Shown in pieces: positions 11,403-43,102 of a stretch of DNA of 64,000 bases. Made by a program: the position numbers and the translations under genes. The notes under the pieces were generated by a model. It was not told the origin of the DNA. It ran no database searches and was given only the letters and a program-made list of their open reading frames with translations. Numbering within the stretch: position 1 is the first letter of the stretch; each line of letters starts with the position of its first letter. The stretch comes from Pelagibius sp. Alg239-R121 (GTDB lineage Bacteria > Pseudomonadota > Alphaproteobacteria > Kiloniellales > Kiloniellaceae), in assembly GCF_947331435.1 (NCBI RefSeq), contig NZ_CAMZOF010000014.1:62001-126000 (forward strand), in the 5' to 3' direction.

Positions 11403-11404
11403 GG

Positions 11405-13213: not shown

Positions 13214-13356
13214 AAAAAAACCTCTACGGGCGCTATAGTCCGATATCGCCCTGGATAGTTTGAACTTTTCAGCGATTATCGGCTGCAAAGTCGTAGACCT
13301 AACAGTTTACACAAATTAATTCGTTGTCTCAACTTAAAGTGGAAATGCAAAATCTT

Positions 13357-18490: not shown

Positions 18491-18574
18491 CTTTGACCTC
18501 CCGGCTTGACCATATCGTTCGGTTCGCGACGGAAGCGAAGTAAAGGACTGTTTGTAGGTGTCATCGTCACATCG

Positions 18575-19735: not shown

Positions 19736-20112
19736 ACCTAATATCGCCCTTCGTCGTCGCTGCGGATCAGCGGTAGCCCGGCCTGATCCCCTTGTTCTTG
19801 TTGTTCGATAAAGTCCGGGTTCGCGCGTCGTAACAATCAAGAAACCGCATCGTCATGCAGCTCTGCCATACGAACGAGACTCGACACGCCTAAACTGTCA
19901 GAAACTAGAGTCGTATCCTTTTCGCCTTTATGACGCTACAATTGAAATTCCATACGTGTTGCACTACTTTTCACCAAATCTTCATCAGCGTCAATTGGGA
20001 ACTGGATGAAATCGCCAGTTCGATTATGGGGCATGTTTTCAAATTGTGACCATCGATGTAAAGAAGTGTCAGATTTCGCGGCAAAAATTATTCTGAGCTT
20101 AGGGTCTCGAAC
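19736..20112. promoter_or_regulatory. divergent intergenic region between sspA and the methyltransferase
   Basis: 377 bp between two divergent starts must hold the promoters of both the ssp operon and the methyltransferase gene. The sspA side carries AAGGGCG before ATG 19735; the other side has a weak AGGG before GTG 20113. There is a short inverted repeat AACTGG/CCAGTT about 100 bp before the methyltransferase. I could not assign -35/-10 boxes with confidence. Confidence 0.5.
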
Positions 20113-21553: not shown

Positions 21554-22783
21554 CTATTTCAGTTCCACCCGGAGCTTTGGCGACAAGTATTCTCTTCTAG
21601 TGCCTTTCGTGAGGACGTCGATCATTTCTGACAAATGCAACGTCTTATCGGCATGTTCTCGGACGGAGTCGTCGTTTGTACTCCAGAATTTCCACCAAGG
21701 AGTCATGGCCGCCACGACGTTCAATTCAATCTCAAATGATGATGTCTTTGTCGGATCAACTCTCAAAGTCCATTTGTCATTCTCATCCCTAATCACTGCA
21801 ACCGCATTTTTGCGGGAAGCGTCAATCACCCAGTGAAATTCTTTCTCGCGTGGAAATTTTTCCTCGAGTCCGGTTACTGTCATGTGAACACTGAAGGGCG
21901 CATTGAAGCCTCGGGCAAGACGCATCTCCAAGTGATCTTCGTTTTCAATCGTCAGCACCTCCTGCAATGCATCGACATTCAATACGACAGCCGGGTTCAG
22001 TTTTTCGGGCTCGGTTAGCTGAACGACTTCTACCCGCGCCCCGTCTTGCTTCTCGGCCAAAGAGCGTATCGCCTCAATGAACCCCTCGACGATGTCTGTT
22101 CCAATAGCCATGTCCCGCGCGCCAATCCACAGATAAATGGGCCGTACACCGGAATGGTCGAATGACCCTTTTTGTCCAAATGCGTCCGGCGTCTCCGGGT
22201 AGACGCGACCACGAAACTCTGAGCGAAGTCCGATTAACCACAGATTGACCCCCTCACGGTCAAGCGATTGAAGCTGGGTCATAAGTCGACTGTCGATGCC
22301 AGCCTGGCCTGGGCTAGACGGCAAGCCGTCCGTAACAACCACAAATACTTTGGATTTGCGGAGCTGATCCGTGGATAGGAGTTCGACCAACCTCGTTTGT
22401 CGACTCCCAAAATATTCCTTCCTCGCCTTTGCCGACGGGAATTTGAGCCTATTTAACAGCGATTCTGTGGGGCGCAGCTCTTCTGGATCCGGAACGGCTT
22501 CGCCAAACGTCCCAAAATACACCGGCTCGTCACTGAGTTGGCCGCGTATTACTTGGAGCAGATGGACCCATAGAAACCGCTGAATGATGCTTCCATGCTC
22601 CTTTGTCGTTCGAAAGTAACCTACCATGCTGAGAGATGCATCCAGGTAGGTTGCAACACCCTTGTAATCCCTGGGGGGCGGAGGCGGTGGCGGTGGTGGG
22701 GGAACTGGCATGCTTGGGTAGAGCCAATATGCCGCTCCGCCGAGGAACGCCAGGGGAAGGAGAAATATCAGGAACCGTTTCAT
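21554..22783 (-). CDS. membrane-anchored VWA-like protein with polyproline linker
   Basis: A 409-residue protein. Residues 3-22 are one transmembrane or uncleaved signal segment, followed by eleven consecutive prolines (28-37 region) as a rigid spacer. Then comes a von Willebrand A-like fold: MIDAS motif DASLS at 48-52, a Thr near 131 and VVVTDG ending at 153. The C-terminal 150 residues resemble a beta-sandwich. It would sit on the periplasmic side and bind a partner through a metal ion. It is the last gene of the minus-strand cluster, 6 nt after the preceding gene. VWA proteins accompany tubulin/FtsZ-like proteins in proposed membrane-remodelling operons, which fits here. Confidence 0.75.
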   Translation of the reverse strand: MKRFLIFLLPLAFLGGAAYWLYPSMPVPPPPPPPPPPRDYKGVATYLDASLSMVGYFRTTKEHGSIIQRFLWVHLLQVIRGQLSDEPVYFGTFGEAVPDPEELRPTESLLNRLKFPSAKARKEYFGSRQTRLVELLSTDQLRKSKVFVVVTDGLPSSPGQAGIDSRLMTQLQSLDREGVNLWLIGLRSEFRGRVYPETPDAFGQKGSFDHSGVRPIYLWIGARDMAIGTDIVEGFIEAIRSLAEKQDGARVEVVQLTEPEKLNPAVVLNVDALQEVLTIENEDHLEMRLARGFNAPFSVHMTVTGLEEKFPREKEFHWVIDASRKNAVAVIRDENDKWTLRVDPTKTSSFEIELNVVAAMTPWWKFWSTNDDSVREHADKTLHLSEMIDVLTKGTRREYLSPKLRVELK

Positions 22784-22789
22784 CGCGTC

Positions 22790-23608
22790 TTACTCTTGGA
22801 CACTGAGTGTGCCTTTCTCACCTTCGACGCGCCAGCCGTCGGTCGAACGAACTACGACAGGAGCACCCAGTACACGGCCGACACGCGTTCCTTCCTTCAC
22901 GTTTCCCCATTCCTTAAGCTCAAAAAATGGTGAAAATGCTTGCATCGTCCATCCCGCCATTCGCCGTGGGAGCAGAACAAACCGGTCGTCCGGCATCCGT
23001 ATTGCGAGGAGGAGCCAATCACTGTCACTCACCGCACACTCCGTCGAACACACGAGATGAACCTCGACTTCGCCAAATCGCTGTTGAAGGCTATCCTTGC
23101 ACGCCTCCAGGACCATGTGCCCCTCGGCTCGCCACCACGCAAGAAGGCTTGATAGAGTGAGCGGTTCGGTGCTTATTCGGACATCGCGTCGCACGGTTTC
23201 GGCCGTGAGACCTCCCCCGCCTGCGACGGCCGCAGGAGAATCCGATGGGATGCTGTCGAGTGCTACCGTCACGTACCGGTTTACCAGTAACTGCAGTTCA
23301 TTCATGAACTGACCAAACTGTCCGGCATCGTTCGCAATCGGGGGTCGGCGCTCAATTTCAGGCCTCAGTTCGCCGCCATTCCGCCTAGTTCTCGCGGTTG
23401 CGATTCCCCTGACCTCCTCCGCGAGTGCGTCGAGCCGTGCTTCCATGTGGCAGATCTGTTCATCGCGGAGTCGGGCGACATGCGACCATTGATGAAAGGT
23501 CTTGCGGAAAAAAAAGATTGCGGCAGCCGAGATGGTGACCAGCCCAAGGGCCAGGACCAAGTACAAGAGAAAACGAACTGCCTGTGAGGTGAGTTCATCC
23601 ACCACCAC
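22790..23608 (-). CDS. membrane-anchored coiled-coil protein, unrecognised
   Basis: A 272-residue protein with one transmembrane helix at about residues 11-33, a heptad-like segment at 40-70 (rich in Glu, Arg and Leu), and a soluble C-terminal domain of about 190 residues that I cannot name. The likely start is one of three successive GTG codons at 23600-23608, overlapping the end of the actin/Hsp70-like gene, so translation is coupled to it. It ends 6 nt before the VWA gene. By position it may tie the cytoplasmic ATPase to the membrane, which is inference. Confidence 0.6.
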   Translation of the reverse strand: MVVDELTSQAVRFLLYLVLALGLVTISAAAIFFFRKTFHQWSHVARLRDEQICHMEARLDALAEEVRGIATARTRRNGGELRPEIERRPPIANDAGQFGQFMNELQLLVNRYVTVALDSIPSDSPAAVAGGGGLTAETVRRDVRISTEPLTLSSLLAWWRAEGHMVLEACKDSLQQRFGEVEVHLVCSTECAVSDSDWLLLAIRMPDDRFVLLPRRMAGWTMQAFSPFFELKEWGNVKEGTRVGRVLGAPVVVRSTDGWRVEGEKGTLSVQE

Positions 23609-26438
23609 TATCCCATTGCAAACTCGCTACTAGTCGCGGCTGAATTTTCTCCAGAAATAGATTAAACAGGCTATTGTTTAGTCCGTATTTCCCCCCTGGC
23701 GCGGTATACACGCAAGTTTGACATTCCCTGTTCAGCTCGCGAGCGATATCTTCTAGCTGTTTTTTGGATATCGCGAATCCGGATAACGCCACGAATTGCT
23801 CGACAAACCGAGAACAATCGAAAGACAGTGTTTCACTTGATAATCCACCAGTTGGAATGTCGCTTTTCCAATCGATAGGCTGACCTGCAACGATGACATC
23901 CCCACCCATGATGGTTCTGACGGAAATATTGTCAGGGTGATTGTATGTCCCTTCTCGAGCAATCCGCACCGCACCTTTCGAGACTGCGCCCTTGAAGTCA
24001 TTGTTCCTAGGTAGAATTACATTGGCGTCGACGCCCCAGTGTTGGAACAGTCGGCTGACATACTCTGGTATTGTATCGTGTGGAGCGGAATAACCTTCGA
24101 TTAAGCGCCATCCGTTGCCGACCGGGAAAAAATCGACTTTTCGGATGTCGTGTCGAGCAAGCAGACGTTCGAGGTAAACAAAAATCCCAACAAAGAATCG
24201 ATTTATCGCGGCCTGAGCCGACTTTCTCTGGGGTGGCGTGAAAGTGTCCAGGACCAATCGGATGCCGCCGGCATCCCGCAAGAGCCGTTGCATGATGATC
24301 ATCCGATCATTCACATCCAGGTCCTTGTCATCCAGGCCTTCGCGACGAATGTTCCGGAAATTCTCCGCCAGATAGTTCAAATAGACGTTACCCCCGTAGG
24401 CGACGCTTTCGACATATTCGCCGCCGGCCACATTCATGGCGATATCGGTTGTTCCACCGCCGATATCGACCACCATTACCGCACGGTTCTGTTCTGACGA
24501 GCCGACGGAAAGCGCCTCCACCGCGTATGATTCGGCGATTAGTTCTTGCAACCCCAGAGTCGGATTAACCATAGCCAGTTCGATTACCATTCCCGTCTGT
24601 TCGGCAAGATCGGCGAACAACGCGCCGTTGCCGGTCGAAGCCGCTAACAGCTGCTTGTATTGCTCATAGCGGCTTGCTCCGAAGGCCAGCGGGTAGGTCG
24701 GTACGATGTCAACATGGCAACTGAGGTAATCCTTCCTGATTTGAGCCAGCACGAGGGTGAGGACCATGTTGAGGTAGACTTTGGTTAGCTCATCACGACT
24801 AAAACCGTCAGGTGCTTTCCATTTGAAATTGCTTACCAGATGTCTACTAATTCCGGTTCGCCTAAAATAAGGAAACGGCACGGTAAAATCGGCGATAGGA
24901 CGCGTCAAATTTCCTTTGACCCTGGCACTCAACGTCGTGAATAAGATTTCGGACGGCAGCAGCGACAATCCAGGCCCATCCATATCAGCGGCTGAGGCGG
25001 TCGGCACGAAGCTTGATGCCTCACGCTTTTGATTGCTTTCGGGTTTCCACCATAGTCGCGTCAGGAGGTCGTAGGAGAGGTCCTCGAAGGTGAACGTGGT
25101 ATAGTCCCCTGCTTCGTCGTCGAATATCCCGAGAGCCGTGTTTACGGTTCCGAAATCGAGCGCGATCGTCTTCGCTATGTTGCCCGACTCAAGATCGGGA
25201 CGATCGTCCATGAAAATACCGGCAGGCTTGCCGTCGACGACCATTTCCGCATATCGCACTGCTTCATTGATCTGGCACCCTAGAGAGTCCGCAACCGTAT
25301 CCAGCTTGACTAGGCGTTCTCCAAAAAGATTGACCGTTGGATGTGTCCCGGCGAACTCCGCATTCGTCATGAAATAGGCGTAATTGATCTTCCATCCTTT
25401 GGCTCTATAATTCGGCCAAAGGAGTAGGCTTCCCTCAAAATTCTCGATCAACATAGAGGCTAGAGGCTTCCATTCGATCGGTGCGTCCCATCCTCTCAGA
25501 TAAATTTGGTAAACTGGACGCCCTTCAAATGATCCACTGATTCCCGATGCGTCAGTGTCCACAAGGTTCAAAAATTCTGAACGTAGAGGCAGATCGGGCG
25601 TACGGCCATTCGAGCAAATTACAAGTCTCTCGCAGAACAGATGCTTCGAGATCGCACGGAGGGGTACACTCACTAATTCGCCATCGTGTTTGCGGAGTCG
25701 CGCGGTAGAGATCACGCTGGTGAGGTTACCGAGCGCTCCAGTAGGCGCCTTGACGGTGGTGGACCAGTTCCCCGAGGAGAGATTGTTGAGAGAATCGAGA
25801 GCCAGAAGAGGCTCGCTCGATGGCAGTTGAAGGACCTTCCTAATCTCCTGAACCCATTCGGTGAACAATGCCTTGACGAGACCCGGCCCGAGGCGCTCCA
25901 TTTCTTCGTCGATCGCGATGGCGAGAGCATTCAGGGTGATATTGCAGACAAGCAAGTCGTCCCGGATCCGGACGTAGTCCGGTTCGGGGCTCGTCGTCGG
26001 CCCCTTGAGGTCCCACTCCGACGCCGCCTGGAATCGGGCACCCGGGAAAACAAGGCTATCTGGGTATGCACCACCGATGACCTTGTTCTGCCATTTTAGA
26101 ACAAAAAACTCATCTAAGTTGGGTTCAAAGCTTTGCAATACATATGCGGCACGAACGGTTGGCGCCAGGTCGGTGAGGCTGTGGGAGACCACCTCAACGA
26201 GACCGAGGAAGATCCCCTGCACCAAACGGCTGAAATACTCGTTGGCCGCCGGCTCTTGCGGTATCTGGTTCAAGGCCTTGGTGAAGGAGAACGCGCGCGC
26301 GAAAATCGACGGAACGCCCCCGTGGTGAATCTCTTCCTCTCGGTACAGCCGACCGTCGAAATCACTCGGTTCGATCGTGGTGGTGCCGGCTTCGAGAGCT
26401 AATTGCCGCCAATCGCCAGGAAGAAGTAATTCGGCCAT
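23595..26438 (-). CDS. actin/Hsp70-fold ATPase, SrfB-like in size
   Basis: A 947-residue cytoplasmic protein. The C-terminal half carries the actin/Hsp70 nucleotide-binding signature: phosphate-1 loop ALDFGTVNTALG at about 426-437 and phosphate-2 loop VVDIGGGTTDIA at about 656-667, with a GNGWRL adenosine-type segment further on. The first 420 residues have no motif I recognise. Length and layout recall the SrfB virulence-factor family (actin-ATPase clan, about 1000 residues), but I cannot confirm membership. The ATG at 26438 has AGGAGA upstream and lies 2 nt after the tubulin-like stop; a TTG at 26444 is an alternative. Pairing with a tubulin-like GTPase in one operon is the notable feature. 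Confidence 0.8.
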   Translation of the reverse strand: MAELLLPGDWRQLALEAGTTTIEPSDFDGRLYREEEIHHGGVPSIFARAFSFTKALNQIPQEPAANEYFSRLVQGIFLGLVEVVSHSLTDLAPTVRAAYVLQSFEPNLDEFFVLKWQNKVIGGAYPDSLVFPGARFQAASEWDLKGPTTSPEPDYVRIRDDLLVCNITLNALAIAIDEEMERLGPGLVKALFTEWVQEIRKVLQLPSSEPLLALDSLNNLSSGNWSTTVKAPTGALGNLTSVISTARLRKHDGELVSVPLRAISKHLFCERLVICSNGRTPDLPLRSEFLNLVDTDASGISGSFEGRPVYQIYLRGWDAPIEWKPLASMLIENFEGSLLLWPNYRAKGWKINYAYFMTNAEFAGTHPTVNLFGERLVKLDTVADSLGCQINEAVRYAEMVVDGKPAGIFMDDRPDLESGNIAKTIALDFGTVNTALGIFDDEAGDYTTFTFEDLSYDLLTRLWWKPESNQKREASSFVPTASAADMDGPGLSLLPSEILFTTLSARVKGNLTRPIADFTVPFPYFRRTGISRHLVSNFKWKAPDGFSRDELTKVYLNMVLTLVLAQIRKDYLSCHVDIVPTYPLAFGASRYEQYKQLLAASTGNGALFADLAEQTGMVIELAMVNPTLGLQELIAESYAVEALSVGSSEQNRAVMVVDIGGGTTDIAMNVAGGEYVESVAYGGNVYLNYLAENFRNIRREGLDDKDLDVNDRMIIMQRLLRDAGGIRLVLDTFTPPQRKSAQAAINRFFVGIFVYLERLLARHDIRKVDFFPVGNGWRLIEGYSAPHDTIPEYVSRLFQHWGVDANVILPRNNDFKGAVSKGAVRIAREGTYNHPDNISVRTIMGGDVIVAGQPIDWKSDIPTGGLSSETLSFDCSRFVEQFVALSGFAISKKQLEDIARELNRECQTCVYTAPGGKYGLNNSLFNLFLEKIQPRLVASLQWDSGGG

Positions 26439-26440
26439 TA

Positions 26441-27865
26441 TCAATGTTCTCCTGCCAGACCAAATTCCCCGTTGAAATATCGATTGTCGAGAGAACGAAA
26501 CAGAGCGCTGACAATTGCATCGGATACGGTATCGTAATCCAGTTGTTCAGCTTCTAAATTCCTCAATCCTCTGGTTGCTGCTCGTATGAACGCCATTGGT
26601 CGGTGGAGTGACTGCTGGTAACCGTCACCATCGAGTTCGCATTGCAAATCAATTGAAAACGGCACAATGTCCTTCGTCAGTGCCTCGTACCGGCGAACCG
26701 TCGTGTGTATCCGCTGCGCTTCCTCGGTTAGTTTGGTGCTGACAGCACGCTGGATAGTCTCTCGTCTATTTTTCGTCAGTCGTGTCAATCGCGTCAGGAT
26801 CTTTTCGATATCCTTAGGCATCGGTGGCACGAAGGCAAAACCCAACCCGCCGTCGAAAAGTCGTGAAAGTCGGGAAAGATAGCGCGCCACGGCGACGTTT
26901 AATTGGATGACCCGTTCAAGCGAAACCGACCTCCCCTCCCCGAGCGCAATGCCGATACCGAGATCCGTGGCGACTTTCCGACCCTGAGGCATCTGCACGA
27001 CCTCAATGGCGTGGGCATTGTGGAGACGCGCTAATCGGCCGCCGTCGAACAGAGACTGTGCGTATGCAGCGGCGAGGACATGCAGCGGTTCGGATTGCTC
27101 AGTTTGCTTTCCGACTGCTTCATGCGTTCGGCTCGGCGGAACACCAAGACCGAAAAGTACACAACCGTTTGTTCCATCAACGATTTTGTCAGCGAGAAAG
27201 CTCATACCTGACTTGGCGTTAACGGCGATCTGCTCATTGTGAATGATCTCATGATCCGCCATACCTTGGTCGACCGCGACGGGGCGTAGGCTGAAGTGCT
27301 GCAAAAAATAGAGGATATATAGTTTGACGTTATCTCGATGGGATGTCGATTTCAGGGCGCGATTGATCTCATGAGCGATGGTCGGTACACCACCAGCGCC
27401 GGTACCACCCATAGCCGAGCCGCAAACGATCACGGTGTGTGTCATGCCGTCACGAAGGTACGCATTCGTCGACTCGGGCGATCCGTCGAACAATTCGTCG
27501 AATGAACCTGACGCCGGACGACTCAGGCTATCGACAATCATTGCCGCCCCGACTGGAGGACGCCCGTACATTCCCTGGCCTACCGGTGTGCTCTGCTCCC
27601 GTGCCGTGAACAGAGCATCCAATACATTTTCGCAGAACTCGCGGTTACTGGGCTCTGTGAAATGTGTGCCGACAGTGGCTCCGGCCCCCTGAGGAAGTGG
27701 ATCGATAAACGTGCTGTCGACGGAATCCGTATAGTGTTCAATCGTGTCGCGATCAAGATGATACATCCGGGCAGTCGGCAACCAGGGCATCAATGACATG
27801 AGACGTGCATAGCTAAGGGCCATCATCTGCCCGGTGCCACCAACCGCAATCATAAAACTTGCCAT
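26441..27865 (-). CDS. tubulin/FtsZ-like GTPase (Tubulin_2-like)
   Basis: A 474-residue soluble protein. It opens with a Rossmann-type strand and GGTGQ loop (residues 9-13), as in FtsZ and tubulin, and has the tubulin signature loop as MGGTGAGG at 152-159 after a VIVCGSA strand. An acidic loop and long helices follow. This is the pattern of the tubulin-like families of bacteria that are distinct from division FtsZ (Pfam Tubulin_2 type). It would bind GTP and perhaps polymerise. The T7-type GxxNxDxxD catalytic loop of FtsZ is not obvious, so polymerisation-coupled hydrolysis is uncertain. It is coupled to the actin/Hsp70-like gene downstream by a 2-nt gap. Confidence 0.8.
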   Translation of the reverse strand: MASFMIAVGGTGQMMALSYARLMSLMPWLPTARMYHLDRDTIEHYTDSVDSTFIDPLPQGAGATVGTHFTEPSNREFCENVLDALFTAREQSTPVGQGMYGRPPVGAAMIVDSLSRPASGSFDELFDGSPESTNAYLRDGMTHTVIVCGSAMGGTGAGGVPTIAHEINRALKSTSHRDNVKLYILYFLQHFSLRPVAVDQGMADHEIIHNEQIAVNAKSGMSFLADKIVDGTNGCVLFGLGVPPSRTHEAVGKQTEQSEPLHVLAAAYAQSLFDGGRLARLHNAHAIEVVQMPQGRKVATDLGIGIALGEGRSVSLERVIQLNVAVARYLSRLSRLFDGGLGFAFVPPMPKDIEKILTRLTRLTKNRRETIQRAVSTKLTEEAQRIHTTVRRYEALTKDIVPFSIDLQCELDGDGYQQSLHRPMAFIRAATRGLRNLEAEQLDYDTVSDAIVSALFRSLDNRYFNGEFGLAGEH

Positions 27866-27916
27866 TTTTTACCGTCTGTCCGTTTGCAACGTGCTTGGGT
27901 GTCACCTCTTATTTAG

Positions 27917-28348
27917 TCAGCGTTTGGCAATCCAGAGCGAGACACCCATGGTCCAATACAATACTATCGATAGTATGGCGTTCGTCATCACGGCCGTCAT
28001 GATCGCGACTTCGTCGCCCCGCACCGGCAGCAGCCAACTCCAGGGAAATTTTATAAACTGCGTGCAATTTCCATTGGACAGGGCGTCCTCGAGGTCGGGA
28101 GACGCGAGGATAAGCAAAATTGGCGTCGCTGCCGCTACAATCGCCAGAACGCCGAGCGGGAGAAGTAGGCGCACCAACGCATGAACATTGCGCGCAGTAT
28201 CGCCGTCAGGGGCATCATCTTCGAAGGAGGAGAAACTCAGCCGCCGCGTCATCCACACGTGCCATCCAACGGCGAGTGCGGAAATGATAGTGATCAACAC
28301 GAGCGATAGCGCCGCACGGTCATTGATCAATCCAATACAACCTATCAA
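27917..28348 (-). CDS. small three-helix membrane protein, unrecognised
   Basis: A 143-residue integral membrane protein with hydrophobic helices at about 12-32, 61-83 and 116-138, and an acidic cytoplasmic or periplasmic loop between the first two. No family recognised. Start is TTG at 28348 with GGGGGA 7 nt upstream; no in-frame ATG precedes the first helix. It lies 27 nt after the secreted DUF1598-like gene and 51 nt before the tubulin-like gene, so it is part of the same transcription unit and could anchor the tubulin-like protein. Confidence 0.6.
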   Translation of the reverse strand: MIGCIGLINDRAALSLVLITIISALAVGWHVWMTRRLSFSSFEDDAPDGDTARNVHALVRLLLPLGVLAIVAAATPILLILASPDLEDALSNGNCTQFIKFPWSWLLPVRGDEVAIMTAVMTNAILSIVLYWTMGVSLWIAKR

Positions 28349-28375
28349 GGTCGTTCCCCCGATCTCACCGAGTTT

Positions 28376-30286
28376 TTATGGGAACTGACCCCAATAGGTC
28401 GTTCCCCCGGCGGGCGCAATAACATCCGGTAGCACGAACGCTCGCAATTGGGCCATTTTAGGATCATGCAACATTTCTACGAGCGCACGCAACCTATCTA
28501 GGCCGGTCGCACCTGTGCCGCGTGAGACGCTGATGATTCCGACACCATTGGCTTGCAGGGCATGAATGATGTCACGATCCCAAATCCGGGATTGCCCGGA
28601 GTCCAAGGCATTGATCGCCAGGAACCTTATGTGATCTAGACGGCGCAAAGCGAGGATAGACTCGTATCCAACGTTCCCATCTCGAACGACGAATCCACCT
28701 TGGCGAAAACGCCCGTCGAGCAACAGCACGTCAATTTCCGGCTTTCCTAAAAACTCGAGAAATTCGCCCTTGTTCGGATTGATCAATACACGGTCCGGCC
28801 CAAGTGTGCGCTTCAGTATTTTAGCCCAATCGTTCACGCTGTCTTCGGTCCGTACGAGGACAGCATGAACCCGACTGCGCGCCAATGTGGGGACCGCCAT
28901 CATCCTGGTCGTTAGGCGGAGTATGCTGTCCAATGGATCGTTGTTGTTGGCTGTGATCGGGAACAACATGCCAGAGGAGCCGAAACCGGCCTCTTGAGCG
29001 ATAGCCAACCAATCCGCGTCCACGTTATCGGAGATCAGGCCGATTAAGGGACGACTTTGCCGTTCAGCTGAGACGAATGGGGCGATGTGGTCGCGATGGA
29101 ATGCCTCCCAATCGTCGCCGACGTGATTTTCGTCAGTTGCACGAAGAATGAGATCCTTTAATAACCGAGCATCGTTGGTTCGTCTCGTGGACGAGCGCGA
29201 GCCTGGGATGATTGACATCATAGGCGGATTCACTGATAGGCGTATGGACAGGAAGACAGCTTGATTCGTTAAGCCCAGTGCGCGGAGATGGCTCTCGGTG
29301 CGAGCTAAGCGCTGGTCGCGTTGTGGCGACAGGGTCGTGAATTCCAGAGCGGACAAACGAACCGCGGACTCTGAATCCTTTTCGATACGGGAGAGCAAGG
29401 TGCGTCGAACCGACGCCAACGCCGCGTCGGCGCGACAACCTCGTTGCCTAACTGCACCAACACCAACTGTGGTAAAAACAGCATTGTCCGCTCGCCATTC
29501 CAGAGATCGGCGGGTTTGAACGTCTGTGACCCGATAGGCATTGAGCAAATAGGCCCAGTTCGATGCCCTAATATTCTTTCGTAGTGCATCAAGGGCTTCG
29601 TATAGTGCAAGGAAGTTTCGTATCCGTTGAAACGCAGAGTGCGTTCGTGTGAGAGCTGCATACTCCTCGAGCAACTGCCGGTTCCACTCGACGATATCCA
29701 AATTATTTCGGTCTTTGGATTTTGTTGAAACTGCAATCGAAACGCCCGGCTCGTCAATCACGGCTATTTTCGACCCAGTTATCGCATCGCACCGCACACG
29801 ATGTGGAATCAGCCCCGTTCGCCCTTCGTCAGACCCAGGATGGATCCAGAAACCGGGCGGGACCTTAGTTTGACCTGCGGCAATTCGATTGAGCGCTTGC
29901 AGCCCAACTGTCATGGCGGCGCCGACCGAAGTGTGCCGAATGCCGCCCGAATACAGCAGCTTGTACGATGTTGATCGTGTCCTTACATCCGGTGACATTC
30001 GGACACCAGGTGGTTGGGACGATCCAATGAGCGCTCGCAACGCCAGGACGACGTCTTCCAACTCCAGGGGGGCGCTTGTCGTCTTTCTTCCGATCAACAA
30101 CAGATCACCGCCCACGCCGACTACAATCGCGTTCAAATGGTCGATCGGTAGCTTCGGTTCTGTCGTGTTTGCCGCCGCTTCCTTTTGAACACGTGCAAGG
30201 GAAACAACAATGAGATCGAAACTCTCCGCTCTACATTCAATAATGCCCAAGATCAGGAGAAGGCTTGCGACAGCAATACGCTTCAT
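28376..30286 (-). CDS. secreted protein with DUF1598-like domain
   Basis: A 636-residue protein with a signal peptide (residues 1-20, cleavage near CRA-ES). Residues about 48-150 form a domain with strands ending in LLLIG, then LELEDVVLALRA, PGVRMSPD and a GGIRHTSVG turn; this recalls DUF1598-type domains from memory and closely parallels residues 815-925 of the RHS protein at 37460-42832. The C-terminal 230 residues are Rossmann-like alpha/beta (VLLLDGR, FLAINALD). Its ATG overlaps the stop of the upstream helical protein as ATGA. A periplasmic sensor or scaffold role is plausible; nothing catalytic is visible. Confidence 0.6.
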   Translation of the reverse strand: MKRIAVASLLLILGIIECRAESFDLIVVSLARVQKEAAANTTEPKLPIDHLNAIVVGVGGDLLLIGRKTTSAPLELEDVVLALRALIGSSQPPGVRMSPDVRTRSTSYKLLYSGGIRHTSVGAAMTVGLQALNRIAAGQTKVPPGFWIHPGSDEGRTGLIPHRVRCDAITGSKIAVIDEPGVSIAVSTKSKDRNNLDIVEWNRQLLEEYAALTRTHSAFQRIRNFLALYEALDALRKNIRASNWAYLLNAYRVTDVQTRRSLEWRADNAVFTTVGVGAVRQRGCRADAALASVRRTLLSRIEKDSESAVRLSALEFTTLSPQRDQRLARTESHLRALGLTNQAVFLSIRLSVNPPMMSIIPGSRSSTRRTNDARLLKDLILRATDENHVGDDWEAFHRDHIAPFVSAERQSRPLIGLISDNVDADWLAIAQEAGFGSSGMLFPITANNNDPLDSILRLTTRMMAVPTLARSRVHAVLVRTEDSVNDWAKILKRTLGPDRVLINPNKGEFLEFLGKPEIDVLLLDGRFRQGGFVVRDGNVGYESILALRRLDHIRFLAINALDSGQSRIWDRDIIHALQANGVGIISVSRGTGATGLDRLRALVEMLHDPKMAQLRAFVLPDVIAPAGGTTYWGQFP

Positions 30287-32793
30287 CGCAACCTCTGGAT
30301 CCGGACTCTTGGTGAGTCACCTTCGCGATCGGGGGGTTCGACGATAATATTAACATCACCTGCCGAATAAAGAAAATTACCTGTATCGTCAATTTTCTCA
30401 GATGAAAGATAATCGCCTTCTGAAACAGCGCCGGCGTTTAATTGAATAATTATAGTTATGTTAATAATCACGCTAACCGTCAGCAGCACAAAGAGAATCG
30501 CCATAAGGATCTGCGGCTTCATGCCAGTCAAAAAAGCACTTGATAGCGTGCGGTTTTTAGAGGTACCAAACAACGATTTCCCGCCCCTCCTCGCCTTGGA
30601 GACAGTGCGAATAAGAGTTGCCACAAGGACCACAAAAAGGAGTAGCGCCAGTAGCAGAAGCGCTAACACCCATAATGGAAAAGCGGCAAGATATGCCCAC
30701 AAGCTGCCCCAAAATCCCAATCCCGCCCCTGTTTCGCTACCGCCAATTGGAACATCTCTTGAATTGCCTTGGAGCCCACCTACGGGTTCGCTGGTTTGTG
30801 AGGTAACAGATTCTGAGCGTACGGTTTCTCGTGCTCGCGCCTCCTCCGCTAGACGCGCAGTCTCTCGTGCTCGTGCCTCCTCCGCTAGACGCGCAGTTTC
30901 TCGTGCTCGCGCCTCCTCCGCTAGACGTGCAGCCTCCTTTTCATTTTTGATCTGACTTAACGCGGTTTCGACGTCAGTGTTAAGTTTCTCTTCTACCTGT
31001 TTTCGGATTTCTTGAAAAAGTAAGGCGTACCGATTATCCAGAGAGGCTGGTGGTTGCTGGGGCCAAATCGTGTCGACGCGATAAGCTGACCAGATTTGTT
31101 CAATAAGAGATGCGAAGTACGTCACCCACTCTTTTTTGCTGCCGCTTCCAGCTGTGGGAGGCTTCGCATCGAATCCGACTGGCGCACCCACGATCAGCTC
31201 TTTGATCGTAGAAAGTCTGTTTTTGTCGCGACTACGCACGCCTTTGATTGCCGCCGTGTGGCCAAGGTAGATTTCGTATTGGCCGTCCCAAGCGCGTAAC
31301 GCTTCATTGATACGATCCTCCACACCGCGGCTTACGTACTCTTTGGTTTCCGCCAGAAGCACATCGGTTTTGAAATCTACCGAAGAGATTGAATTCAGAA
31401 GGTTCAAATTTCCGAGATCCTGACAAACAATAAACAAACAATCGCGGATGCGCACAGGATCGACGATACGTGTTCCATCGCCCAGTTTCATTGACACGAT
31501 GAAGCGTTCATCGGGGGGCTTGAAAAACCAGGTCCTATCCGCTATCGATCTAAAATTATCCCTATACTGGCCTGCTGCAATAGTTTCACGAGCAGCCTCA
31601 AATGGGGTCGCGATCAGGGCATTGACACGCGCCGGAAGGACGTCACCTAGTTCTTGCAAGTAGCTTTGCTTGACTCGTTGTCGCACCTCCGCTTGTTCCT
31701 GATCCGGTACACCAAGCACGTAAGCCTCGACGAGGAGACTTTGAAGTCGGGGAAATAGCTTCTCGACAATCAGGCTGCGGCTGGTCTCCACTTCGGCATG
31801 CGCTATGAGATCAGTGCGGATCAAGCGCTCGATCTCCCCTGGGTCAGTTAGGGGCAGCACATGCTTTTCAATGAACTCATCGAAACGCTGTTTTTCTAGA
31901 TTGGCCGCACCCTCCTCGATCATAATCCGCACAATGGAGAATAACGGGTAAATATAGTGCCAATCCTCCTTGCTTTCGCTCTGCTTGTCGATCGCACGTT
32001 GGACCGAACCGGTCCAACTCGAGGAAATCTGACCTCTGGTCCAAAGTTCGGGCGCCAGCTCAGAATCGATCGCCGTTTTCTGGATCGCGATCTGCTCCTT
32101 GACATGGGCAATGATCTGCTTAATACGTCGTTCGACGGCATCGGACACTTCTGCCAATAACGCGGGCTCCGCGCGCTGCATTTTCCGAACAAGTGTTCGT
32201 TTGACGAAGTTTTTCTCGTCCAGAGCCGGCCAACCAGCCTTCTCCATCTCCTCGACCTGCTCGATCGAGGGATAGTGATTAAGCGAAATGCGGTTCATTT
32301 GAGCTTCGACCGCCTCGTCTCTCGCCCTCACGAAGAGGGCTCCGGCAGTATCCGAAAATGCCTTTTTGCTTTGCTCAAATTGTACTGTGAAAGCTTCGCG
32401 CATTGAACGACGAAAGGCTTCCTCGCTCAACTCGCTTTCCGCGATTTCGACGCTTCGGTATGCGCGTGCAAGCGCTTCGTCGAATTCTTGTTCTAGCCTT
32501 TGATCGAGGAACTCGAGTGTCAGCTTCTCGCTTTCCTCCGCAGTCGAATGATTTTCGATGTTGGAGAGGATCTGTTGTTTGATCTCGCCGCGAAGGGTCT
32601 TCGCCTCCTGTTCGGCTTTGTAGCGCCCGCCCGCATCCTGAGCAGCCTCTCGCGCGAACATCTTGGCAGATAGCAGACGACTCTTGTGCTTGGCATCTTG
32701 CTGCGCGTGTGCCGGGTCGCTCGCCGTGGTCGAACCGATTAACGCGATTACCAGCGCTATTAAAAAAAGACCACTCTTTGGCAAGGGACCCAT
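30283..32793 (-). CDS. large periplasmic helical protein with C-terminal membrane anchors
   Basis: An 836-residue protein. A signal sequence (residues 1-30, cleavage near AHA-QQ) is followed by some 600 residues of mostly charged helices that should project into the periplasm. Three copies of the 12-residue unit ARLAEEARARET come next, then a Ser/Gly linker, a strong transmembrane segment (about 695-730) and a second one (about 762-788), and a short soluble end. I do not recognise a family. ATG 32793 lies 5 nt after the MotB-like stop; a start at 32826 would overlap that gene. It is probably a structural, rod-like element between the membrane and the cell wall. Confidence 0.65.
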   Translation of the reverse strand: MGPLPKSGLFLIALVIALIGSTTASDPAHAQQDAKHKSRLLSAKMFAREAAQDAGGRYKAEQEAKTLRGEIKQQILSNIENHSTAEESEKLTLEFLDQRLEQEFDEALARAYRSVEIAESELSEEAFRRSMREAFTVQFEQSKKAFSDTAGALFVRARDEAVEAQMNRISLNHYPSIEQVEEMEKAGWPALDEKNFVKRTLVRKMQRAEPALLAEVSDAVERRIKQIIAHVKEQIAIQKTAIDSELAPELWTRGQISSSWTGSVQRAIDKQSESKEDWHYIYPLFSIVRIMIEEGAANLEKQRFDEFIEKHVLPLTDPGEIERLIRTDLIAHAEVETSRSLIVEKLFPRLQSLLVEAYVLGVPDQEQAEVRQRVKQSYLQELGDVLPARVNALIATPFEAARETIAAGQYRDNFRSIADRTWFFKPPDERFIVSMKLGDGTRIVDPVRIRDCLFIVCQDLGNLNLLNSISSVDFKTDVLLAETKEYVSRGVEDRINEALRAWDGQYEIYLGHTAAIKGVRSRDKNRLSTIKELIVGAPVGFDAKPPTAGSGSKKEWVTYFASLIEQIWSAYRVDTIWPQQPPASLDNRYALLFQEIRKQVEEKLNTDVETALSQIKNEKEAARLAEEARARETARLAEEARARETARLAEEARARETVRSESVTSQTSEPVGGLQGNSRDVPIGGSETGAGLGFWGSLWAYLAAFPLWVLALLLLALLLFVVLVATLIRTVSKARRGGKSLFGTSKNRTLSSAFLTGMKPQILMAILFVLLTVSVIINITIIIQLNAGAVSEGDYLSSEKIDDTGNFLYSAGDVNIIVEPPDREGDSPRVRIQRLR
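30824..30931. repeat. three tandem 36-bp repeats inside the helical-protein gene
   Basis: Units 30824-30859, 30860-30895 and 30896-30931 differ from one another at only a few bases and encode the 12-residue charged helix ARLAEEARARET three times. The near identity at DNA level implies recent expansion or ongoing copy-number change that would lengthen or shorten a helix without shifting frame. Confidence 0.9.
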
Positions 32794-32798
32794 CTGCC

Positions 32799-33746
32799 TT
32801 ATTCGACCGACTGAAGCTGGTACCACGTCACATCAAGGAAGGCATACCCGGCTTGTTGGAGTCGTTCGCGGATTTGGTCGATCTGTCGTTTGTAGAACTC
32901 GTTGACCTTTGCCCTGCGATCCTCGGGAGTCGTTGTTTGATCTAGTATCTTGTTGACGAGCTGTTTGGACTTGGCGTCCAACTCTGCCGGGCGTGCAAGG
33001 AGAAGGTCAAGAATGCGCGTGAGGACCTCGCTCTGTATGCGTTTGGCATCCTGTTCAAATGTATCGACGCCCTCCAAAATTGCGTTGTGAATTAGGGCTC
33101 TATTGGTGGGAACTACGATTTTGGCCTTGGCCAGCGCGAGTTGCGCTTTCTGATCCGAGGATAGCTCGCCGAATTGTACGTCCTCGATAACCGTCAATTC
33201 GTCGGCCCACTTCTGAACCGGCTCTTTTTGAAATCCTGCACGCGCTTCAACCAGATTTGCTTTCTCCAACACCCTGGCATAAAGGCCATCAAGATATGAC
33301 TGTCTCGACGCCGCTTTGCCATCAAACAAACTCTTGATTTGGGAGGAAAATACCTGAAATTCGAGATCGTCGATCACTGTATTATTTAGTCTTACGCGAA
33401 ATCCCGAAGAAAAAATGGCAAATCCGATTCTCGCACGCTCTTCAATCTTAACTGCGTTCCAAGCCTCGAGCATCCTCAGTCTCTGCAATTCGTATATATT
33501 ACGCCACTCCAATATTCTTGCCTGCTCAGGTTTTGTTTCGCCAATACCTTCAATCTGGTCTTTCAAATCTTTATTTTCCGCCTCGATATATTGACCAACC
33601 AATTTGTTCTTAGAAATCTCCAAAACCGCCACCAAACTTAGAATCATGATCAAAGGGAACAAAAGTTGCGTAAACAGGTTCCATATCATGTCTTCGTCCT
33701 GGGAGCTTTTTCCGTAGACCAACGAGCGCGCACTCCTTGTATTCAT
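32799..33746 (-). CDS. MotB/ExbD-position membrane protein without OmpA domain
   Basis: A 315-residue protein with one transmembrane helix at about 21-43 preceded by the acidic cluster DED (residues 17-19), then about 260 residues of charged helices. It follows the MotA/TolQ-like gene with a 9-nt gap, where MotB, TolR, ExbD or ZorB would lie. The Asp just before the helix could match the proton-relaying Asp of MotB, though it sits nearer the membrane edge. The peptidoglycan-binding OmpA-like domain of MotB and ZorB is absent. GAGGTGGAGAG precedes ATG 33746. The stator-partner assignment is from position and topology. Confidence 0.6.
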   Translation of the reverse strand: MNTRSARSLVYGKSSQDEDMIWNLFTQLLFPLIMILSLVAVLEISKNKLVGQYIEAENKDLKDQIEGIGETKPEQARILEWRNIYELQRLRMLEAWNAVKIEERARIGFAIFSSGFRVRLNNTVIDDLEFQVFSSQIKSLFDGKAASRQSYLDGLYARVLEKANLVEARAGFQKEPVQKWADELTVIEDVQFGELSSDQKAQLALAKAKIVVPTNRALIHNAILEGVDTFEQDAKRIQSEVLTRILDLLLARPAELDAKSKQLVNKILDQTTTPEDRRAKVNEFYKRQIDQIRERLQQAGYAFLDVTWYQLQSVE

Positions 33747-33755
33747 CTCTCCACC

Positions 33756-35111
33756 TCATTCACCAAATGGCCGGGGCCACCATCCTCTTTTCTTCGGCTT
33801 ATTGCTGTAGCTATCGGTAATCGCCTTTATTTCAGCGACGAGCTTTTGATGCAGGTCGGTGATTGAGTCCAAGTCCTTAATTTCTATAGTCACGTGGGTG
33901 CGATGTTCCTGCTTCCTCACTGCGCTCAACAGTTCGTCAAACCTTCGGTCAACTTTGTCTCTATGGGAATTTGACTTCTTTTCCATCTCGCCCTCGGTCT
34001 GAGTTATCTTCTCAGAAAGCATGTTCGCCACTCGTGTCAGAACCTCGGCGAAGGCGGCGCCAAGTCCGTCGACAGCATTCTTAGTTGCCTCCGGTTGGTT
34101 TGCGAGTCCCGTCTCTACTCCTTTGATGGCTTTCTTAATTTCAGCAAGATCGGATTTTAGAACGCCGGCGGTATGGTTTTTATCGAAACTGTCGGGGAGA
34201 GACTTAACCGAGTCGTTTACGTTTGTGAGTCCTGTAGAAATCGAATTCCACAATTTAATAATTTTTTCCGGCGATTGCTTCTCGACGGCGGCAGAAAGCC
34301 GATCCACCGCCGTCTTTAATTCAACTATGCTGTTTTCGGTTCCAGCCAATTCAACACTGGTCGATTTCAATCTTTCCTCAAGGCGGGCGAGAGAAGACTC
34401 GGTAGAACCGGCGGTTGGATCTGAGAGATCATAGATCCATCGCCAGACCCGGATCACCAAGGGCCCAAACACGTAAGCCAACACCGTCCCAGTAAATGTA
34501 CTGAGAAGGGCGGTTCCGAAGGCTTTCAGCAGAATGTCGAGCGTATCAACGGCACCAACGTTCCCGACGACGTCTTTCATCCCCCAACCGATGAGCATAA
34601 ATCCCCACAACGTACCCAGCAGTCCGAACTCAATCCACTGGCGCTCGTAGCGAAAATGCAAAGGCAGGACGTCGGCTTCGTCGTAGAGCCGTTCCTCCGT
34701 TATTCTCCCCCTTGCCGCCTGCGTCGTGTTACGTGCTAGGTCGAAAAAGAACCAGCAAAACAAGAATGGAGTAACTGCTGAAAGGTCAATCGAGGCCCCT
34801 CGTAAAATAGCGATAAAACGGCTAAAAAATCTAACGCGCTCGTCTATGCTGGCACGCTCAGGTTCACTGGATAGCGGCCTGTCCGACGTCTCGAATATAC
34901 TTTGGTTCGACTCGATCTGATTCGGAATTTCACTAATGTTGATGACTAAAAATGTTACGGAGATTGCTAACCCAGTAATAGCGATCAGCAACAGAATAAT
35001 TAGAATCAGCTTTTTACCGGCGGATTTCGGGTTCACAAAATGGTATTTTACGGCGCCAATAGATTGCTTTGCCGCACTCCTAGGCAGTCGGCCTGTAGTC
35101 GCTTTTTTCAT
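33756..35111 (-). CDS. MotA/TolQ/ExbB-like channel with long coiled-coil tail
   Basis: A 451-residue protein with transmembrane helices at about 34-57, 107-126, 162-180 and 197-222. The last two carry the proton-channel family signatures: GLLGTLWGFMLIG, and FGTALLSTFTGTVLAYV. Residues about 230-425 are a long cytoplasmic tail with heptad-like Leu/Val spacing and many Glu/Lys. That tail is reminiscent of ZorA in Zorya defence systems, where a MotA-like channel bears an extended tail. No ZorC, ZorD or ZorE is present. It would drive ion-powered motion or signalling together with the next gene. It lies 6 nt after the TPR lipoprotein gene. Confidence 0.82.
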   Translation of the reverse strand: MKKATTGRLPRSAAKQSIGAVKYHFVNPKSAGKKLILIILLLIAITGLAISVTFLVINISEIPNQIESNQSIFETSDRPLSSEPERASIDERVRFFSRFIAILRGASIDLSAVTPFLFCWFFFDLARNTTQAARGRITEERLYDEADVLPLHFRYERQWIEFGLLGTLWGFMLIGWGMKDVVGNVGAVDTLDILLKAFGTALLSTFTGTVLAYVFGPLVIRVWRWIYDLSDPTAGSTESSLARLEERLKSTSVELAGTENSIVELKTAVDRLSAAVEKQSPEKIIKLWNSISTGLTNVNDSVKSLPDSFDKNHTAGVLKSDLAEIKKAIKGVETGLANQPEATKNAVDGLGAAFAEVLTRVANMLSEKITQTEGEMEKKSNSHRDKVDRRFDELLSAVRKQEHRTHVTIEIKDLDSITDLHQKLVAEIKAITDSYSNKPKKRGWWPRPFGE

Positions 35112-35117
35112 GCCTTA

Positions 35118-37004
35118 TCATCTATCGCGGCAGATGGCGACAGCGTGTGCGTCGATATCGTCCTCGCTTTTTGCATCTTTGTTCCCCCCGTTATCGGAAA
35201 TCATCTCTGCAATTGATAGGCGTCCTTCGACATCTACCCGCTTTTCCATCCCCAGAATTTCATAGGCTTTACACAAATCACTTAAGTATGACTGAATTCG
35301 AATTGGGGATTGAAGTTTCCCACGCTCAAAATAGCACTCTGCGCAAGAAGAATTTTTCTCAATAGCTTTAGAAAGATATTCTAGAGCCCTTTTTTTCCTA
35401 CCCCTCTTACGATTTGTTCTTGCAAGAAATAAGTACGGTTCATAACGATCACTATTTTCATCTGTCATTTTCGAAAATAGTTCAATTGCTTCTTCTTCCT
35501 CGCCATCGCGGATGAGGAGCTTCCCGAGTCCAATTTGAGCCTCGGGCTCGCCGGCTTCCGCGGCTTTCTTGAAATGGGCCTTCGCCTTTGGCCAATTGCC
35601 GTTTCCAGCATAGATATTGCCAATTTGTGTCAACACTGCCGGGGTCTCTGGAAGCTGCTGCCAGTAGTTAAGTGTGATCCTCTCGCGGGCATTTTCCATA
35701 CAGGCGCTCGACGGCCAGTTTCGAACATAGTCTCCGTATCCCTCGTAGGTGTCGGTGCGCGTTGCTTCACGGTAGGCGTTGAAACTTTGCTCGATCTTCT
35801 CCATCTGCGCGCGTTGTCGCCCAGTACCCTCTGGAAAGGCGGCTTTATATACACGAAACGGTTCACTGACGCAGGAGGTTCCAGCTTCACGTAAAAGGCT
35901 GGGCTCAACAAGATCCCGTACTGGTTTGGCATACCGGCCCGATGGCCAACGTCTTAGATATTCAAGCGCAGGGCCCTTGGCGCCATTGACCGTTTCGGTT
36001 GCTTTGCGAACGTCACGAAACTCTTTGAACTCCGGATCGATCAACTTCACCGTCTTATGATCGCGAACCACGACGCCTTGATTTTTCACAGCAACACCGA
36101 CCTCAAGAGTGAGGGATGCTTCCTCGTCGATGTCCGGAGCATGGAAGGTAATGGGCACGCGTCTGTTCATGCCACTGTCGAGGTTCTGGATCGATTTTGA
36201 AATCAATGGCTGCGTAGCACCATCGTAACCACTAATTTGTAGCGCCACATCGAGACCTTCGATCGTCGCGCTACTGGCGTTTTTGAGATCGGCAAAGACT
36301 GTGTACGCAGTGTTGTCGAAGAGCGGCTCGGCCGCGCTTAAGTTTTCCAGGGTCAGCGATATCGCGACAACGATAGGTTCGAGTTTTACATTGGTCGGCT
36401 CTGGCAGTTTGGGGCTCGGTGGAGGAAGCGCGGCTAAACTCCCGATCCGGTCCGAGGAAGGACTTGGTTTTGCTATATCCTGTTTCTCGAGGTTGTCTAA
36501 TTCTTGAACTAAAATAGTGGTGTGCGGCGCAGTCCCACGATCTTGATTCTGGTCTGTAGCGGTGGAAGGCGGGCGTGCAGCTGTTTGAGAGGGTTCCTGC
36601 GAAATCGTCTCTTCTCCAACTCGCTTTTCGTGCGCTGTCGGACTATGAGGTTCGGGCAAGCCATTCGTGACGGTTGTACCCCCATCATCGTGCTCTTGGG
36701 GGCGATCATTCGTCTCTTCCAGACCGACTACCTTTCGCCAATCAAACTCTTCGGCGATGGTCACGAATTTGTCTGCCGTCTCGCATCCGCTCAAAAGCAC
36801 ACATGCCATAACGAAGGAGGTCAACCTGCCGAGTGCCCGCCATGGCCACTGAGGCCGAGCAGTGCCTCCATATGCTGGATGTGGAGGCTCACCTGTCCGG
36901 AAGTTCACAAGATTGAGTTGCAATCTTGATTGCTGGCGCGAATTAGCCAAGAAATCCCAAGGTCGAAGTTCTGCATGAACAGACCAGCGAGAATTTGATG
37001 ACAT
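35118..37004 (-). CDS. TPR lipoprotein
   Basis: A 628-residue protein from ATG 37004, which has a good GAGGAAAT Shine-Dalgarno; GTG 37040 is an alternative. A hydrophobic segment with lipobox LLSGC places the lipidated Cys at about residue 74, late for a signal peptide, so the real start may be a TTG close to the lipobox. After a Pro/Thr/Ser-rich linker comes a beta-sandwich domain (about 200-310) resembling CARDB/Ig-like modules, then TPR or SEL1-like helical repeats (about 470-590, including GNWPKAKAHFKKAAEAGEPEAQ). It would be anchored in the outer or inner membrane leaflet facing the periplasm and scaffold the complex. It is first of the tightly packed genes. Confidence 0.65.
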   Translation of the reverse strand: MSSNSRWSVHAELRPWDFLANSRQQSRLQLNLVNFRTGEPPHPAYGGTARPQWPWRALGRLTSFVMACVLLSGCETADKFVTIAEEFDWRKVVGLEETNDRPQEHDDGGTTVTNGLPEPHSPTAHEKRVGEETISQEPSQTAARPPSTATDQNQDRGTAPHTTILVQELDNLEKQDIAKPSPSSDRIGSLAALPPPSPKLPEPTNVKLEPIVVAISLTLENLSAAEPLFDNTAYTVFADLKNASSATIEGLDVALQISGYDGATQPLISKSIQNLDSGMNRRVPITFHAPDIDEEASLTLEVGVAVKNQGVVVRDHKTVKLIDPEFKEFRDVRKATETVNGAKGPALEYLRRWPSGRYAKPVRDLVEPSLLREAGTSCVSEPFRVYKAAFPEGTGRQRAQMEKIEQSFNAYREATRTDTYEGYGDYVRNWPSSACMENARERITLNYWQQLPETPAVLTQIGNIYAGNGNWPKAKAHFKKAAEAGEPEAQIGLGKLLIRDGEEEEAIELFSKMTDENSDRYEPYLFLARTNRKRGRKKRALEYLSKAIEKNSSCAECYFERGKLQSPIRIQSYLSDLCKAYEILGMEKRVDVEGRLSIAEMISDNGGNKDAKSEDDIDAHAVAICRDR

Positions 37005-37459
37005 ATTTCCTCGTATCCCGAACGGCAAAATCATATGCACTCTCTTTCGGGTCGGCTTGGTGTCGTCTCATATGTTAATGCGGTTACTACAACCAATGTT
37101 AGTTGTACTCATGACGACTGTCGAATCTTTGGTGTCAATGTATCAATTTTAATGGAGAAAAACTTCGCGCCACACCCTGTCCGTGCGTACCTTCGATACC
37201 TGACAAGTGTTCTAAAAGGCTAGTAATGCGAACCTCTCGACAAAAGCTGTATCATCACCCGCGCTCTAAGTTACTCATGTCGTACCAGGAGGTTCAAAAG
37301 TTCTGGCAATTGCGCAAATCCTGCGTCGAATCAAGTTCGTTGCCTAGTTTAGTACGCATGCCCCTCCACACGGGGAGGTCTAGCCTTTTGAGTCGAATCA
37401 AGCGCTTACTTGACAGTGGTAGCCAGTTCCCGCCATGACATCCAACCATCGTGTGATCG
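37005..37459. promoter_or_regulatory. 455-bp gap upstream of the TPR lipoprotein gene
   Basis: Separates the RHS gene stop from the next gene on the same strand and probably holds the promoter of the ten-gene run. It contains two direct copies of GTCGAATCAAG about 70 bp apart and a weak CCTCC/GGAGG hairpin; no clear terminator or coding signal. Confidence 0.4.
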
Positions 37460-42832: not shown

Positions 42833-43102
42833 ATCGCGGCCTTCCCACAACGAAAATAATGGCCACCTAAACTATGGATTTGGCCAATCCAAAACAACTT
42901 GCCCCAACTATGCAACAGATCTATCTGCGAAGGCTGACATACCTTCAAAAATGGCGTACTATGCCAAGAAAGTTATATCGCTATTTCCTTTGGGAGTTGT
43001 ATCTAAAACGCATTACTAAAGCTAACATCATAAGTGCGACATCTGAATCGGCATATCCAGCGCCGCGATAGATTCCCAAAGTATTAGCTAAGGGAGCAAA
43101 TT
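42833..43102. promoter_or_regulatory. divergent region between RHS and encapsulin genes
   Basis: 270 bp between divergent starts, AT-rich compared with its flanks. It should carry promoters for the RHS gene (GGGAAGG site) and for encapsulin-tcA (AGGGAG site, 8 nt before ATG 43103). No convincing -35/-10 pair or operator repeat found by eye. Confidence 0.45.

Follow-up and report, generated by a model that had tools for sequence, protein, structure and literature searches.

Introduction

To our knowledge, bacterial relatives of tubulin and actin that work as a pair are known chiefly from division, in the form of FtsZ and FtsA. The FtsZ-FtsA-ZipA tether consists of a tubulin-like protein, an actin-like nucleoside triphosphatase (NTPase) and a single-pass membrane protein with a cytoplasmic domain. 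Here we analyse a ten-gene operon in a 64-kb stretch of the Pelagibius sp. Alg239-R121 genome (contig NZ_CAMZOF010000014.1, positions 62,001 to 126,000; hereafter the window), which likewise encodes a tubulin-like protein (TUB), an actin-like NTPase (ACT) and a single-pass membrane protein. It differs from the division tether in the separate FtsZ-type gene of its host, in its VWA-like partner and in the long N-terminal region of ACT. Our tentative reading is that the operon encodes a divergent version of an envelope machine that is widespread and undescribed. In it, TUB and ACT would, by analogy with the tether, assemble on the membrane and be coupled to the periplasm.

The nearest proposal dates from 2010, when FtsZl1, VWA, GTPase and OmpA proteins were suggested to form a membrane-remodelling system (Makarova and Koonin, PMC2875224), most other genes of those operons having no recognisable domains according to the main text. 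As described there, that system has in common with the family to which the window operon belongs a tubulin-like GTPase of the Tubulin_2 kind distinct from FtsZ, a VWA or VWA-like protein, membrane proteins and, in seven of the related loci discussed below, OmpA-like proteins; the kinship that a first-pass annotation of the sequence had drawn with the 2010 proposal is supported. No actin-like ATPase or MotA-like protein is named for those operons in the relevant part of PMC2875224, and ACT may be among the unannotated families of its additional files; the GTPases and kinases stressed there were not recognised in the window operon. Tubulin_2 proteins are treated as divergent, and used as a root, in the relevant part of PMC9871819, and a term search of PMC12505986 returned no mention of tubulin or FtsZ. 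Among the literature matches listed (titles and abstract openings, with most subscription journals outside), none was a paper on a TUB-ACT operon.

A five-gene core conserved across phyla

A five-sequence TUB profile scanned over 84,980 species gave 126 relatives, the best 80 of which were used and, with G762, G935, G942 and G972, make up 84 loci. We counted 79: L100 and L109 share contigs with G935 and G762 and were dropped, as was L108 with them, although its genome is not otherwise counted, and L038 and L080 were left out, the TUB open reading frame (ORF) being missing from the ORF selection. Co-occurrence of TUB and ACT in other genomes had been set beforehand as a test, and the outcome was positive. 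ACT lies within the next two genes of TUB, on the same strand, in 43 of the 79 non-duplicate loci, and in 37 of these 43 the gap is -25 to 60 nucleotides (nt). Up to three genes upstream of the pair, counting both strands, 36 of the 43 have a VWA-like gene and 35 a small membrane gene, and a coiled-coil gene follows downstream in 32; all five are detected by profile in 22. Later TUB queries added five loci, with the TUB-ACT pair in all and the VWA-like gene in four, and all five genes are present in G308.

The loci with ACT span seven phyla (Cyanobacteria, Bacillota, Nitrospirota, Acidobacteriota, Aminicenantota, Pseudomonadota and Bacteroidota, assigned from record titles and their taxonomy), across which gene order is kept. 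The conserved unit is a five-gene core, encoding the VWA-like, small membrane, TUB, ACT and coiled-coil proteins, with an optional MotA/OmpA pair. Its members in the window are:

27917..28348, minus strand: TM143 (143 amino acids), a membrane protein with three hydrophobic segments, placed by position
26441..27865, minus strand: TUB (474 amino acids), a tubulin/FtsZ-like GTPase and divergent Tubulin_2 (FtsZl1) relative, from profile, motif and model
23595..26444, minus strand: ACT (949 amino acids), an ASKHA ATPase of the actin/MreB/FtsA type whose N-terminal region is long, from profiles and motifs
22790..23608, minus strand: CC, or p272 (272 amino acids), with one transmembrane helix, a probable coiled coil and a conserved C-terminal domain, from a weak profile match and its position downstream of ACT
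21554..22783, minus strand: VWA-like protein (409 amino acids), with a hydrophobic N-terminal segment and MIDAS-like DASLSM, from profile and motif

The TUB and ACT genes overlap by 4 nt, and the VWA-like gene is the end of the operon. Profiles built without the window sequence recover window TUB (6.2e-29), ACT (2.3e-25) and the VWA-like protein (3.2e-19), each as the sole clear match among 29 window ORFs; the ACT and VWA scores are unaffected by the choice of loci through TUB similarity. The first-pass annotation had taken all ten genes as one machine, and this had to be narrowed: no homologue of p847 or p636 turned up in the 84 loci, where the TPR profile matches eight other ORFs that we take as generic repeats.

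Distances in the TUB and ACT trees are correlated at r=0.943 over the 40 loci with both genes, none of 2000 permutations reaching as high, and over 35 loci the correlations are 0.838 for TUB-VWA and 0.880 for ACT-VWA. Omission of the window and of L067, L112, L108 and G935, which are outlying or near-identical, leaves TUB-ACT at r 0.942 (Spearman 0.897, 35 loci). The conserved TUB-ACT system is almost certainly real, and the envelope machine itself is probably real, because the same core cluster recurs in very different bacteria. Chance adjacency of unrelated genes, an idea for which the low identity of the window proteins to their relatives (14-23%) speaks, has a negligible probability: the pairing counts argue strongly against it, as do the recovery of window ACT and VWA by profiles blind to them and the gene order kept across phyla.

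The two NTPases and their core partners

Both folds claimed in the first-pass annotation find support. In a PDB second look that re-aligned Foldseek's own matches to the predicted TUB model, the best 50 rows listed are all FtsZ, CetZ or tubulin entries. The T4-type loop of window TUB is a variant, MGGTGAGG at residue 152, near but not identical to GGGTG(S/T)G, and its GGTGA is invariant across 38 TUB-family rows. PF13809 (Tubulin_2) scores 15.9 bits on window TUB against a cut-off of 27, and 29.9 on the relative in L103; 35 of 38 family members match it at E<=0.01. A single strong PF00091 match (175.9 bits), presumably FtsZ and separate from TUB, lies elsewhere in the host genome, on a different contig from the window.

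A profile of ACT (alignment A4) matches MreB in the PDB at 3.2e-9, and the best 12 of its 39 matches are MreB, FtsA or actin-family chains; Hsp70 structures are also among the matches. Window ACT carries the ASKHA motifs phosphate-1 (DFGT at 430), phosphate-2 (DIGGGTTD at 660) and, by our own reading, adenosine (VGNG at 775). Most copies are ~950-1250 amino acids long, N-terminal region included. When ACT was searched against 23 genomes of the family and 385 of the class, matches outside the host genome were confined to short stretches around the phosphate-2 motif, in 17 genomes of the class; we take these as other ASKHA proteins. SrfB (PF07520) is likewise a large ASKHA-type protein; it was rejected as an identity for window ACT, with no match at E<=1. 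Acidobacterial loci L050 (16442-19162) and L078 have a second ACT-related gene (906/916 amino acids) near the first, the product of which in Terracidiphilus (L050) matches HSP70 at 9.5e-9 and SrfB at 7.7e-6 (24.6 bits, cut-off 27.1).

The membrane- and periplasm-directed parts of the earlier description are also supported. We assign the VWA-like protein from its MIDAS-like motif: the window protein has DASLS, most of its 35 relatives examined share a D-x-S/T-x-S/G pattern, and none of 28 family members matches a Pfam VWA model at E<=0.05. The C-terminal domain of CC aligns with its family (alignment A7). Searches of the PDB with the VWA and CC profiles returned nothing informative, the CC matches examined being mostly generic coiled coils.

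The remaining operon genes and a putative optional motor

Ten ORFs, arranged head to tail between 37040 and 21554 of the minus strand, make up the operon, with intergenic gaps of -28 to +51 nt. The one-strand arrangement noted earlier is confirmed, and every motif quoted then is present (MGGTGAGG, DFGT, DIGGGTTD, GLLGTLWG, ALLSTFTG, DASLS and LLSGC). A promoter and terminator scan of the operon gave signal at or below chance, and an NCBIfam scan of the window proteins and those of L103 (SynAce01) gave nothing over a curated cut-off. Upstream of the core lie:

35118..37040, minus strand: TPR-repeat protein with lipobox LLSGC, a probable lipoprotein of uncertain true start, from Pfam TPR (1.8e-12) and motif position
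33756..35111, minus strand: MotA/TolQ/ExbB-like membrane protein (451 amino acids) with a long C-terminal coiled-coil tail, from a sub-cut-off Pfam MotA_ExbB match and the GLLGT motif
32799..33746, minus strand: p315 (315 amino acids), with a single N-terminal transmembrane helix, a candidate MotB/ZorB-like partner from a weak OmpA/MotB profile match
30283..32826, minus strand: p847 (847 amino acids), with a hydrophobic N-terminal segment, long middle and hydrophobic C-terminal segments, from hydropathy
28376..30286, minus strand: p636 (636 amino acids), with a signal-like N-terminal segment and a region similar to the RHS protein
37460..42850, minus strand: RHS-repeat protein, upstream of the operon on the same strand and a possible associate, from Pfam RHS_repeat

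The window MotA-like protein falls below the Pfam MotA_ExbB cut-off (19.4 against 22.9 bits), which the L043 relative passes at 24.3. The tailed MotA-like protein claimed earlier is supported by its GLLGT core, common to eight related loci; the motif screen gave nine rows besides the window, and L037 (308 amino acids) was dropped by eye as a dehydrogenase-like Rossmann protein. These eight of the 79 loci, seven cyanobacterial and one from Nitrospirae, all bear ACT (8/43 against 0/36 without it), and an OmpA/MotB-like gene accompanies the MotA-like gene in seven. No window protein has an OmpA match. Of the window proteins, p315 is the one that the OmpA/MotB profile matches best (E 0.011 among 29 proteins), and on this weak match it shows Gln at the channel-Asp position (TQLL, profile TDLL); because the aspartate seems to be absent from this candidate MotB-like partner, the window channel may be non-conducting.

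A long-tailed MotA-like protein with an OmpA/MotB-like partner, such as some of the loci have, is also found in Zorya ZorAB as described in the relevant part of PMC11890865. This raises the alternative of a Zorya-like anti-phage system, in which a ZorAB-type motor would sense disturbance of the surface by phage and trigger the NTPases as a growth- or membrane-blocking effector. In PADLOC the SynAce01 pair matches ZorA (1.9e-9) and ZorB (2.7e-9), below the NCBIfam cut-offs. The patchy spread of TUB, which occurs in 2/398 phylum genomes and 2/367 class genomes (host included in each; the second of the 398 belongs to the host's class) and in 5/246 genomes of another order, would also suit defence, as would copies on cyanobacterial plasmids (six plasmid records, four of them examined) and the phosphorothioation-like module that adjoins the window operon. 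The G308 core copy (L118:1-8000) lies near ORFs that by eye are integrase-like and resolvase-like, suggesting a mobile island and pointing the same way. Against this alternative, the motor was not found in 35 of the 43 ACT loci within the flanks examined, no nuclease or other known effector was recognised in the core, and the window MotA-like protein matches ZorA in its coiled coil alone (E 0.0023). No Zorya effector (ZorC/D, ZorE or other) was matched among five of the ten window proteins, five from L103 and 73 neighbour proteins, and in those neighbours only four PADLOC models match at 1e-10. Two of the four are RT-protease models with three members each, which we take to be the trypsin-like proteases described below. 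With an optional motor and a window partner, p315, that seems to be without the channel Asp, the system differs from Zorya, and we judge this explanation unlikely.

In the three annotated plasmid copies, most of the core genes carry the label hypothetical or unknown. Searches of plasmids with window TUB, ACT and p636 gave no match, and single-sequence scans of genome and viral contigs with window TUB gave no relative.

Neighbouring genes

The 73 neighbour proteins comprise 68 hand-picked from 222 candidates and five from G308 and G942. DUF805 membrane proteins (seven), trypsin-like proteases (four) and zinc-ribbon proteins (three) recur among them, and the recurrent accessory genes also include SH3 and TPR proteins. 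Neither RHS nor Tc families figure among the best 25 of 120 families matched.

In the window, p636 residues 48-122 (~75 residues) resemble residues 821-900 of the RHS protein at 34.7 bits (E 0.007 across 1234 proteins), above all 2000 shuffled decoys (maximum 30.4); this shared region points to a possible link between the RHS gene and the operon. Together with the upstream, same-strand position of the RHS gene, the shared region would suit a machine that exports or delivers the RHS and Tc-like products of the adjacent genes. Against this reading, many loci carry the five-gene core, and RHS or Tc families are missing from the best 25 families matched in the 73 hand-picked neighbours; for this reason toxin delivery is very unlikely. 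A search of 279 phylum genomes found no relative of p636 besides itself. The first-pass annotation had called a DUF1598-like protein here; this was rejected for p636, the only PF07643 match (12.1 bits, E 1.5) lying elsewhere in the host genome.

The RHS protein has a hydrophobic N-terminal segment. Its RHS repeats lie close to the N-terminus and are followed by a weak DUF6531 match at 1192-1230, which looks like a permuted order. Beyond it, the plus strand carries an encapsulin-type (Linocin_M18) match above the Pfam cut-off at 43103-44008, directly before a Tc toxin-complex-like gene of TcA type (TcA_TcB_BD, ABC_toxin_N, Neuraminidase) at 44018-53107, and the minus strand a Tc toxin-complex-like SpvB/TcdB/RHS protein gene at 53844-61880. 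At the operon end, 20113-21147 on the opposite (plus) strand encodes a methyltransferase-domain protein with a hydrophobic-looking N-terminal part. The adjoining minus-strand region 2665-19840 contains genes for a phage-type integrase, an FtsK-type ATPase, a PAPS reductase, DUF4007 and a class V aminotransferase, with a possible STAND/AAA ATPase below cut-off; this gene group resembles a phosphorothioation-type defence module.

Discussion

In the mechanism that we tentatively favour, TUB and ACT would polymerise, bind each other and co-assemble along the inner surface of the cytoplasmic membrane, with ACT tethering TUB there as FtsA does FtsZ. The NTPases would be held at the membrane by the small multi-pass protein together with the single-pass CC, the latter acting as a ZipA-like anchor, and a periplasmic VWA-like protein would couple them to the periplasm. 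Some lineages, including that of the window, add a MotA-like protein with a cytoplasmic tail, elsewhere with an OmpA/MotB-like partner; as an optional ZorAB- or TolQR-Pal-like motor, this might provide ion-driven force or sensing, pulling on the wall or reading its state. The most likely job would be local envelope remodelling or force transmission across the envelope, apart from division. Remodelling is thus the favoured one of the roles named in the first-pass annotation; defence is possible and not favoured, and toxin delivery is unlikely.

Several points weigh against this mechanism. The 79 loci include many close relatives and were chosen by similarity to window TUB, hence they are not independent samples, and for the same reason the TUB profile score is not independent either. 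The correlated trees fit inheritance as a unit, with species history uncontrolled for. TUB can occur without ACT nearby, because 36 of the 79 loci (35 selenomonad-type and one cyanobacterium, some cut by contig ends) have none; the selenomonad examples (L048, L049, L059, L094 and others) often have just a small membrane gene beside TUB, and such loci are perhaps a reduced form of the system. TM143 is a counterpart of the small transmembrane protein upstream of TUB elsewhere by position only, the profile of that family failing to detect it in the window (E 2.8). On CC the family profile is weak (E 0.012) and scores better on the MotA-like tail (4e-5); coiled-coil profiles tend to score well on other coiled coils, such as this tail. 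Pfam gives no MotA match for the MotA-like protein of SynAce01, the OmpA-like partner of which reaches 21.3 against a cut-off of 27.2. Several stretches of the TUB model past residue 295 have pLDDT (predicted local distance difference test) values <50, so that polymer contacts are not judgeable there, and neither the T7 catalytic loop nor filament contacts were identified in TUB from its sequence. The main text of PMC2875224 doubts that FtsZl1 forms filaments in the usual way, some filament elements not being identifiable.

This last doubt also speaks for a sensory or regulatory scaffold, in which the VWA-like protein would read the envelope state and the NTPases would switch conformation without filaments. 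The recurrent DUF805, zinc-ribbon, trypsin-like, SH3 and TPR accessory proteins would suit such a scaffold, as would a Ser/Thr kinase found near one plasmid copy. Tubulin and actin folds usually polymerise, however, and the tight pairing of the TUB and ACT genes suggests direct assembly; we regard the scaffold as rather unlikely.

Returning to the membrane-assembled machine, a bolder form of it holds that at least seven phyla carry a non-division FtsZ-FtsA-like pair that would co-assemble as one composite cytoskeleton on the membrane, geared in some lineages to a ZorAB/TolQR-type motor reaching the wall. We hold this to be somewhat doubtful. If true, it would be a second bacterial tubulin-actin pair after FtsZ-FtsA and could show how composite cytoskeletons arise, and FtsZl1-type proteins, which have no established function in the literature consulted, would gain a specific partner and testable contacts.

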